From Bacteroidales bacterium (GTDB lineage: Bacteria; Bacteroidota; Bacteroidia; Bacteroidales; P3), in NCBI GenBank assembly GCA_017613375.1, contig JAGADZ010000053.1, positions 1 to 49,654 of the forward strand: a stretch of DNA of 49,654 nucleotides, written 5' to 3'. Under the pieces are notes generated by a model. That model had not been told where the DNA came from. It ran no database searches and saw only the letters and a program-made list of their open reading frames with translations. Each line of letters opens with the position of its first letter. The first letter of the stretch is position 1. The position numbers were made by a program, and so were the translations under genes. Shown here piece by piece: positions 26,557-28,328 of this stretch.

Positions 26557-26582
26557 CAGACAAAATAATGGTTGGGATTATT

Positions 26583-27695
26583 ATGGAAAACTACATAGTA
26601 TCAGCACGTAAATACCGTCCGACGACTTTTGAGAGTGTCGTAGGACAGCAGCATGTGACATCAACATTGAAAAATGCCATCCGCACGGGACAATTGGCAC
26701 AGGCTTTCCTCTTCTGTGGTCCGCGAGGTGTGGGGAAGACGACATGTGCGCGTATTTTGGCTAAGACCATCAATTGTATGAATCCCACTGCGGATATGGA
26801 GGCGTGCAATGAGTGTGAGTCGTGCCGCTCGTTCAACAATGGCACCTCTATGAACATCTTTGAGTTGGATGCCGCCTCAAACAACGGTGTTGATGGTATC
26901 AGGGAATTGGTTAAGCAGGTGAATATTCCACCTCAAGCAGGTAAGTACAAGATTTATGTGATAGATGAGGTGCACATGCTGTCGTTAAGTGCTTTCAATG
27001 CATTCCTGAAGACTTTGGAAGAACCGCCGTCATATGCGAAATTCATACTGGCGACAACGGAGAAACACAAGATTATTCCGACAATATTGTCACGCTGTCA
27101 GATTTTTGATTTCAAACGTATACAGACGAGTGATATAGCGAAGCATCTACAGTATGTGGCATCTCAGGAAGGTGTGAGTTATGAACCTGAGGCAATACAG
27201 ATCATTGCCCAAAAGGCCGAGGGTGGATTGCGTGATGCATTGTCCATTTTCGACCAACTTGTGAGCTTTACTGGTGGCAACCTGACATACAAGCAATGTG
27301 TCGAGAATCTGAACATGTTGGACAGCGAGTATTATTTCCGTTTTGTAGATATGTTCAGGGGCGGAGAGCTCTCGAATGCTCTGGTCCTTTATCAGGAGAT
27401 TGTGGATAACGGTTTCGACGGTCAGCATTTTTTGACGGGCTTGTCGGAGCATTTACGCAATTTACTCGTCAGTATTGACCCTGTGACGCACAAGCTGCTG
27501 GATGTGGGTGATGCTATGCGTCAGCGTTATGGTCAGCAGTCTGTTGCATGTGGACTGCCATTGTTGATGAAATGGCTTGAGATTGCATCGGATGCGGAAT
27601 ACCGCTACCGTGATGCGAACAATAAGAGACTTTTTGTTGAGGTGGCATTGATGAAACTCGCCTCGGTGATGAAGGGCTTGGAGAGCGGAGGATAG
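26583..27695 (+). CDS. dnaX: DNA polymerase III subunit gamma (DnaX up to an in-frame TAG)
   Basis: Clamp-loader ATPase. From MENYIVSARKYRP the 370 residues show the AAA+ Walker A GPRGVGKTTCARILAKTIN, a zinc module with four cysteines (CMNP...CNECESC), Walker B IDEVHMLS, sensor/SRC motif ILSRCQIFDF, and the C-terminal collar domain ending LMKLASVMKGLESGG. This corresponds to domains I-III only. A TAG at 27693-27695 stops the frame, but the same frame stays open to 28328 and encodes the rest of the family's usual length. TAG is an ordinary stop in other genes here (mce, dxs, ligA), so it is not globally reassigned. The product may be a natural short gamma form, or the gene may be damaged or misread. 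Confidence 0.9.
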   Translation: MENYIVSARKYRPTTFESVVGQQHVTSTLKNAIRTGQLAQAFLFCGPRGVGKTTCARILAKTINCMNPTADMEACNECESCRSFNNGTSMNIFELDAASNNGVDGIRELVKQVNIPPQAGKYKIYVIDEVHMLSLSAFNAFLKTLEEPPSYAKFILATTEKHKIIPTILSRCQIFDFKRIQTSDIAKHLQYVASQEGVSYEPEAIQIIAQKAEGGLRDALSIFDQLVSFTGGNLTYKQCVENLNMLDSEYYFRFVDMFRGGELSNALVLYQEIVDNGFDGQHFLTGLSEHLRNLLVSIDPVTHKLLDVGDAMRQRYGQQSVACGLPLLMKWLEIASDAEYRYRDANNKRLFVEVALMKLASVMKGLESGG

Positions 27696-28328
27696 ATAGC
27701 AAGGGCGCCTGAGGCGGGACACGAAAAAAAAGAATGTGGGAATGATGTAAAGAGTGAATGCGGAAAAACGGCGGATTCTACAGATGTGATAAATGTCACA
27801 AAAGAATCGGCTCCAGTGGAGAATGGAGAGCGGAAGACTGAGAACAGGGAAGGGGTGACGGATGCGGCAAAGCCTATGAGGGGTCTGCCTCATGGGATTC
27901 TTTCGTCTGTCTCGATATCAGGGCCTATTGATATTAAGTCTGTCAAAGGATTGGAAACACGTAAGGTTGAAGAACTGACGCAGAAAAGGTTGGAGGAATT
28001 ATGGGAGGAACTTGCGGCAAACAGTAAGGATGAGCCGAAACTGTACGAATTGTTATGTGACAAACGTGTTGAACTGAAGAACAACAATCTCTTTAATGTG
28101 TGGGTGCCGAATTTGTATCTGGACAATGTGTTCCGTCAGTATCAGGATAAGATTCTTTCTTTTCTTAGAGGCAGGACGGGCAACGAGGCGTTATTGTACA
28201 AAGTTGTGGTTGAAGTAGAGAAGCGTGAGACGCAAGCTTATATGCCGCGAGAGAAGTTTGATGAGATGGCGAAGCGCAATCCGGAGATGTATAAGCTGCG
28301 GAAGTTGTTCCCGGATATTGATTTTTGA
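27696..28328 (+). CDS. dnaX: DnaX C-terminal (tau-like) part, same frame after the TAG
   Basis: 210 codons in exactly the dnaX frame, open from the base after the TAG. The first 70 residues are a polar linker (APEAGHEKKECGNDVK...), as expected between clamp-loader and tau domains. The rest is folded: KVEELTQKRLEELWEELAA, LFNVWVPNLYLDNVF and the end PREKFDEMAKRNPEMYKLRK, which resembles C-termini of Bacteroidota DnaX. The first standard start codon is GTG at 27786 with no ribosome-binding site I can see. Expression could come from readthrough, from reinitiation (GGAGG at 27687-27691 lies just before the TAG) or not at all. Total length with the upstream part is 581 codons, a normal full DnaX. 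Confidence 0.8.
   Translation: MARAPEAGHEKKECGNDVKSECGKTADSTDVINVTKESAPVENGERKTENREGVTDAAKPMRGLPHGILSSVSISGPIDIKSVKGLETRKVEELTQKRLEELWEELAANSKDEPKLYELLCDKRVELKNNNLFNVWVPNLYLDNVFRQYQDKILSFLRGRTGNEALLYKVVVEVEKRETQAYMPREKFDEMAKRNPEMYKLRKLFPDIDF

Follow-up and report, generated by a model that had tools for sequence, protein, structure and literature searches.

Probable programmed UAG readthrough at the gamma/tau junction of dnaX in a genus of uncultured gut Bacteroidales

Recoding by frameshifting or slippage is classically illustrated by the dnaX gene. When viruses read through a UAG, as in gag-pol of murine leukaemia virus, signals located 3' of the stop codon also take part. In the sections consulted of two papers (PMC5009743, PMC3711429), the strategies described for dnaX expression in other organisms are −1 frameshifting, slippage, proteolysis, and split genes with runs of ten adenines (A10). 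Conserved in-frame stops have also been reported in bacterial genes, and in the sections consulted of that study many of them are thought to be short-lived (Belinky et al. 2021, PMC7918605).

In this work, the dnaX locus of a Bacteroidales bacterium was analysed within a window of 49,654 nucleotides, which is the whole stretch of DNA considered (contig JAGADZ010000053.1, assembly GCA_017613375.1). The host belongs to a genus of uncultured gut bacteria, and dnaX is an essential DNA-replication gene. In this genus the gene is interrupted by an in-frame UAG between its gamma-like and tau-specific parts. Probably, programmed readthrough of this UAG, promoted by an RNA element on its 3' side, yields tau, and termination at the same codon yields gamma.

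Several described systems share features with this locus. As in the −1 frameshifting of E. coli dnaX, one gene would give two products with a common N-part, and a hairpin is present 3' of the recoding site (sections consulted of PMC5009743 and PMC3711429). However, E. coli dnaX uses a slippery A AAA AAG, an SD sequence and a stem-loop, whereas the junction in the genus consists of an in-frame UAG without A AAA AAG, and the recoded product would be tau instead of gamma. The slippage of Thermus thermophilus dnaX and the split A10 genes concern the same gene and serve the same purpose, and A9-A11 runs are carried by sister genera of the one studied here (same sections). Unlike Thermus dnaX, there is no A run of at least eight near the junction in 104 of the 105 species in which both parts share one frame (called type 1), and no frame change in any of the 105.

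Outside dnaX, the closest likeness is with murine leukaemia virus gag-pol, in which an in-frame UAG is also placed between an N-part and a C-part (sections consulted of PMC5009743; for the UAG, the abstract of PMC4178896), although here it lies in a bacterial chromosomal housekeeping gene, is followed by another 3' motif and would be decoded by a bacterial ribosome in the presence of RF1. The cases of Belinky et al. resemble dnaX in that a stop is common to related species inside a gene under purifying selection; however, in their example TAG and CAG replace each other through reversals, whereas the dnaX TAG is fixed in the genus and accompanied by a cis element (sections consulted of PMC7918605). 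The word dnaX does not occur in the main text of that paper, and searches of an open-access collection listed no study of UAG readthrough in this gene.

The dnaX locus and the conservation of its internal UAG

The dnaX ORF of the window reaches the TAG after 375 codons and then continues in an unchanged frame for 210 open codons, up to a TGA at 28326-28328 (Table 1). Of the alternative frames after the TAG, +1 is closed immediately and +2 after 4 codons (locus L001). The part before the TAG matches TIGR02397, the profile of the dnaX N-terminus, with 434.7 bits, and covers the first 364 positions of NCBIfam PRK14971. Of the 614 positions in this second profile, 486-609 are matched by the part after the TAG (E 4e-14). 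The two are therefore parts of one DnaX gene. A preliminary description of the window had reported the stop, the 210-codon continuation, the early closure of both other frames and the identity of the downstream part as a linker plus the DnaX C-terminus, all of which agree with this reading. A match to PF12169 in the gamma-like part is slightly below the cut-off. The true start is probably the ATG at 26583 in preference to that at 26568, because 76 of the 111 genus loci align from residue 6. The genome of origin (1.78 Mb, 78% complete) has a single dnaX, four other matches being weak.

Table 1. Features of the dnaX junction in the window
Feature	Position	Strand	Evidence
dnaX gamma-like part: AAA+ ATPase, lid, collar	26568..27695	+	PF13177, PF22608, TIGR02397, PRK14971 1-364
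UAG stop codon at the gamma/tau junction, putatively recoded	27693..27695	+	TAG in 111/111 genus genomes read
Conserved 3' context ATA-GCA-AGG, from stop to hairpin; genus consensus ATW-GCA-AGR	27696..27704	+	near-invariance, against codon usage
Hairpin CGCC-UGA-GGCG	27706..27716	+	hairpin at +8..+12 in 99/105
Element tail, loosely conserved; GARCAYRK or similar in the longer-stem subtype	27717..27724	+	alignments
Post-TAG frame: polar linker and DnaX tau C-terminal domain	27696..28328	+	PRK14971 486-609, Ka/Ks

By itself, an in-frame stop that separates long open frames is unexceptional. When at least 120 codons before the stop and at least 80 after it are required, the + strand of the window contains six further stops that divide two long open frames of the same frame (3112, 4354, 11134, 16891, 25003 and 32793). 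In one frame or another, all six have an ATG within the 37 bases on their 3' side, as ordinary adjacent genes do; within the same distance of the dnaX TAG there is no ATG in any frame. What exceeds chance at the dnaX stop is its conservation.

The comparison was extended to 120 genomes of the genus, of which seven gave no match to the C-part and two had the match at a contig start, leaving 111 that were read. The N frame, encoding the gamma-like part, ends with TAG in all 111. A profile of the C-domain places it in frame 0 relative to the N frame in 105 genomes and in +1 in the other six, the worst E value being 3.1e-20; choosing the frame by its longest open run gave 103 in frame, six in +1 and two in +2, and the profile moves these last two (L031 and L200) to the in-frame group. 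The post-TAG part was found in 113 of the 120 genomes, always in open frames of at most 259 codons, so that the N-part and the C-part never share one open frame.

Two genomes of the genus deviate from this picture. In G029 (97% complete, 20 contigs) neither the N-part of dnaX (best E 1.5e-5) nor the C-part was found, which may reflect an assembly gap or a real oddity. G031 carries on contig C222 a second, unbroken dnaX (a 621-codon frame, 67% identical) besides the copy of the TAG type; contamination, amounting to 5% in that metagenome-assembled genome, may be the cause.

The post-TAG frame itself bears the marks of selection. None of the 105 in-frame species has a stop in frame 0 within the first 100 codons after the TAG; the other two frames of the same stretches contain 334 and 327 stops. 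Pooled over 25 close pairs of sequences, Ka/Ks is 0.10 in the N-part (5000 codons), 0.40 in the linker (1230) and 0.18 in the C-domain (3485), values limited by the saturation of Ks in some individual pairs and by the linker of the pair L197/L201, which has 14 codons and reaches 1.2. In an alignment mixing split and unbroken genes, 18 of 18 C-domains match PRK14971. Taken together, these data indicate that the post-TAG frame is under purifying selection.

A sequencing error, a fresh nonsense mutation or a pseudogene, offered in the preliminary description as the plain alternative, might be suspected given that most of the named relatives are metagenome assemblies and that the genome of origin is incomplete. 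The presence of the TAG in every genome read, at the very junction where the preliminary description had proposed to look for it in relatives, and the Ka/Ks of the C-domain refute this alternative, whose probability we consider negligible. TadA-type mRNA editing requires a UACG loop and would not account for the +1 species.

The element that follows the stop codon

The putative key signal, which the preliminary description had missed, is the near-invariant ATWGCAAGR directly after the TAG. In all 105 type 1 species, A, T, G, C, A and G occupy positions +1, +2, +4, +5, +7 and +8, respectively. The remaining positions are less fixed: either A or T is found at +3, 99 species have A at +6, and 104 have A or G at +9. 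The first three codons after the TAG encode Ile-Ala-Arg in 104 of the 105, and there may be some constraint on this peptide at the protein level. However, in the N-part ATC represents 58% of the Ile codons, GCA 15% of the Ala codons, and AGA or AGG 7% of the Arg codons. The choice of ATW-GCA-AGR runs against this usage, which points to a constraint on the nucleotides beyond that on the peptide alone.

The second component is a hairpin. One with at least three base pairs and a start between +8 and +12 is present in 99 of 105 species, compared with 7 to 29 of 105 in control windows further along and with a rate of 17% in shuffled sequences. It mostly starts at +10 or +11, leaving a spacer of 9-10 nt of which nine are conserved. 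The commonest stems are CGCC/GGCG, GCC/GGC and GUCC/GGGC, and both arms are altered in some species, as in the CGCU/AGCG of L156. Among the six species that miss this strict test, five show weaker stems by eye (for instance, GUC-CUAA-GAC in L187), and the sixth, L028, lacks an evident hairpin. The folding energy of the +8..+32 segment (mean −4.6 kcal/mol) is near that of several control windows, with a mean z of −0.46 and z below −1 in 25 of 105; the position of the hairpin and the changes on both arms are better evidence for it than the folding energy. The length of the hairpin differs by subtype, and the tail (CAC or CAT) consequently falls in different reading frames, which suggests a signal at the RNA level. 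A conserved 3' context and a structure after the stop, both found here, would be expected at a site of readthrough.

The preliminary description had also drawn attention to a GGAGG (27687-27691), the small hairpin and a run of eight adenines (27724-27731) around the TAG. All three are at the positions given and the hairpin is conserved in the genus; the GGAGG and the A8 are not. The longest A run between −60 and +150 is of at most seven in 104 of 105 species, an A8 being present only in the window's own species, and near the junction it does not exceed five in 98 of 105. Within the genus, slippage of the Thermus type was rejected, as a run of about nine adenines is absent. Frameshifting of −1, of the E. 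coli type, was rejected both on these short runs and on the frame difference, which is 0 in 105 species and +1 in six.

With respect to its specificity, the element was searched with a covariance model built from 26 sequences of the longer-stem subtype only, because the mafft alignment mis-registers the hairpin subtypes by one base. Within the genus, the dnaX sites score from about 41 to 56 bits, and no place listed outside dnaX exceeds 21.6 bits. Nothing exceeds 23.2 bits, which was used as the noise level, in 294 other genomes from the order, among whose listed rows only three (genus g26) belong to the same family. The dnaX loci of the sister genera g185, g187, g26, g186 and others gave a best match of 10.3 bits. 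Other subtypes are poorly detected by the model, with scores of 22.5 (L023), 11.7 (L033, of type 2, see below) and 8.9 bits (L018) at true sites, and some genomes of the genus have no match under stricter filters, so that the restriction to dnaX and to the genus holds for the modelled subtype. A known Rfam RNA at the junction was rejected, since no family comes near its gathering threshold: between positions 27500 and 28000 of the window the best score was 14.6 bits against a threshold of 45. G372, from another family of the order, contains 23 matches to the model; those listed cover only the hairpin half (positions 14-31 to 14-35) and resemble a dispersed GC-rich hairpin repeat.

Readthrough and its alternatives

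In the genus-wide comparison, the reading with the strongest support is the one suggested in the preliminary description, in which termination gives gamma and amber readthrough gives tau. What would be expected of readthrough is a conserved stop, a downstream frame that is open and selected, and a stop that is ordinary elsewhere; the sequences examined are consistent with the first in all 111 genomes, with the second in 105 of them, and with the third in the stop usage and RF1 data given below. The exception is formed by the six species with the C-part in +1, which readthrough cannot explain. By analogy, the layout of in-frame stop, spacer of 9-10 nt and hairpin is that of a recoding site. From the conserved UAG, the frame, the selection and the element we infer that both proteins are produced.

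The product released by ribosomes terminating at the UAG would be a gamma-like DnaX, about 370 residues long, with the ATPase, lid and collar. On the ribosome placed at the stop, AUWGCAAGR would sit inside the entry channel and the hairpin near the mouth of this channel, beyond the spacer. The conserved mRNA 3' of the stop would hinder RF1, and in a fraction of ribosomes an ordinary near-cognate tRNA would be accepted at the UAG. Continuation in frame past this codon would then give tau with its C-terminal domain. If this is true, the gamma/tau pair would be reached by one more route, a bacterial housekeeping gene would provide a genus-wide case of programmed UAG readthrough, and the short 3' motif would be a testable model for how mRNA in the entry channel can hinder RF1. 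Annotation pipelines might label dnaX genes of this kind as truncated or as pseudogenes.

An in-frame UAG would also be accounted for if the codon were reassigned to an amino acid, or read by a dedicated suppressor or pyrrolysine-type tRNA. However, the tau parts of the same 111 genes end with TGA in 62 cases, TAA in 25 and TAG in 24, and RF1 scores above the curated cut-off in the seven genomes tested (7/7), in agreement with the statement of the preliminary description that TAG is a normal stop elsewhere in the window. G122, a 100%-complete relative, has 45 tRNAs according to a covariance model, and ARAGORN names 45 in the stretches read; none of them has a CUA anticodon, nor does any of the 35 tRNAs detected in the incomplete genome from which the window comes. 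Therefore, the search for an amber suppressor tRNA proposed in the preliminary description had a negative outcome in both sets. UAG is not reassigned in the genus and there is no suppressor tRNA as far as seen, which makes reassignment or suppression highly improbable.

Another way of producing the tau C-domain would be as a polypeptide of its own, started 3' of the stop by termination-reinitiation or belonging to a separate downstream gene. In-frame ATG, GTG or TTG codons exist downstream in all 105 species (from codon 12 to 112), and in the window's own species a GTG at 27786 gives an ORF of 180 aa. The codon after the TAG, AUU or AUA, is of a kind that can start weakly, and might serve as a start here. 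On the other hand, this codon is ATT in 61 species, ATA in 44 and ATG in none, and the first ATG is found anywhere between codons 17 and 210, lying past codon 100 in 45 of 105. SD-like sequences within 20 nt upstream are present in 2 of 105, below the 9.5% rate of control windows. A separate start would leave unexplained that the frame is identical in 105 of 111 genomes and that no stop is tolerated from the TAG to the C-domain in any of the 105. Reinitiation, which the preliminary description had left beside readthrough as an option, is disfavoured by these data and we regard it as improbable, its forms with an ATG start or an SD sequence being rejected.

In a stop hop, or bypass, the peptidyl-tRNA would leave the codon that precedes the UAG and re-pair in frame with a matching codon downstream. 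In the bypassing of T4 gene 60, a stop and a hairpin are located near the take-off site, which is a precedent for the arrangement seen here, and in the six +1 species the N frame and the C frame do in fact disagree. However, the codon before the TAG is variable, with 17 kinds over the 111 genomes, and 8 of 105 species have it again in frame within 12 codons, below the shuffled mean of 15.4. A codon of the same box recurs in 66 of 105 (72.3 in shuffles), and the codon in any frame in 61 (58.0). Moreover, the C frame stays tied to the TAG while the length of the hairpin varies. Bypassing like that of T4 gene 60 was rejected, matching take-off and landing codons not being above chance, and a stop hop in general is quite improbable; according to the sections consulted of PMC5009743, natural in-frame stop hops are not known. 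Programmed readthrough remains the reading that we prefer for the 105 type 1 species.

Variants of the junction in the genus and in its relatives

The six species with the C-part in +1 (L033, L151, L154, L169, L175 and L178), called type 2, have the sequence NNY AGG CNT AGC TAG in the N frame. Their hairpin and tail resemble those of type 1, most often AGATCGCCACAAGCGGAACATA, and the N-frame stop is UAG in all six. Aligned by eye, type 1 TAG-A-TAG-C-AAG-ATCGCC corresponds to type 2 TAG-GCN-TAG-C-TAG-ATCGCC, with a length change of 2 nt. Type 2 probably represents a variant of the element for +1 frameshifting, in which tau needs a +1 shift. This raises a reading that does not exclude the previous one, in which the element is a general stop-stalling device that supports readthrough in 105 species and +1 frameshifting at NNY AGG CNT AGC UAG in six. 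The shared hairpin, tail and UAG in 6/6 speak for it; the candidate shift codon is ambiguous, however, and the re-pairing of the P-site tRNA after a +1 shift looks poor. In addition, the type 2 species do not form one clade in the N-part tree, where support is low. We hold this general role as tentative, its chance being a little short of even.

The relatives of the genus carry dnaX in other layouts. The nearest sister genera, g187 and g185, are 74-78% identical to the N-part of the window and have unbroken dnaX ORFs of 575-637 codons. Nine of their ten genomes were read, G456 having only a fragment, and an A10 run is present in the linker in eight of these nine. In L261-L263, L265-L267, L269, L270 and L039, the run of ten adenines lies at codon 450-505 of a dnaX whose frame is otherwise intact, a layout like that of Thermus slippage. 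In g26 and g186, of the same family, dnaX is split and carries A9-A11 runs in the 12 genomes read (12/12).

Twenty split dnaX junctions were fetched from genera and families of the order other than the genus studied, of which three ran off the contig and 17 were read. Their stops are TAA in nine, TAG in seven and TGA in one, and none of the 17 shows ATWGC after the stop in the printed sequence. Fourteen of them carry an A9-A11 run a short distance 5' of the stop, and the longest open frame that follows in these is the +2 (−1) one. In a tree of the N-part, from which L166 was omitted for its short N-part, the genus forms one clade (110 loci, with a support of only 0.36) next to g187 (0.976).

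This comparison suggests that, specifically in this genus, the TAG element has taken the place of A-run recoding. An extended proposal can be made, in which a compact UAG-AUWGCAAGR-hairpin element, fixed in the genus, drives efficient readthrough by ordinary tRNAs and replaces the A-run recoding of the sister genera, and in which a variant switched to +1 in a few species, one stimulator serving two kinds of recoding. We consider the chances of this whole proposal to be evenly balanced. The A-run layouts of the sister genera allow asking how recoding mechanisms replace each other.

Further variety exists among the split genes. L348 (f2), L344 (g192), L054 and L067 have a split dnaX in which the longest following frame is +1 and no A run is found near the stop. 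Possibly, yet another recoding signal operates in these four; L054, L067 and L348 share the sequence gtcaggcaatc before the stop.
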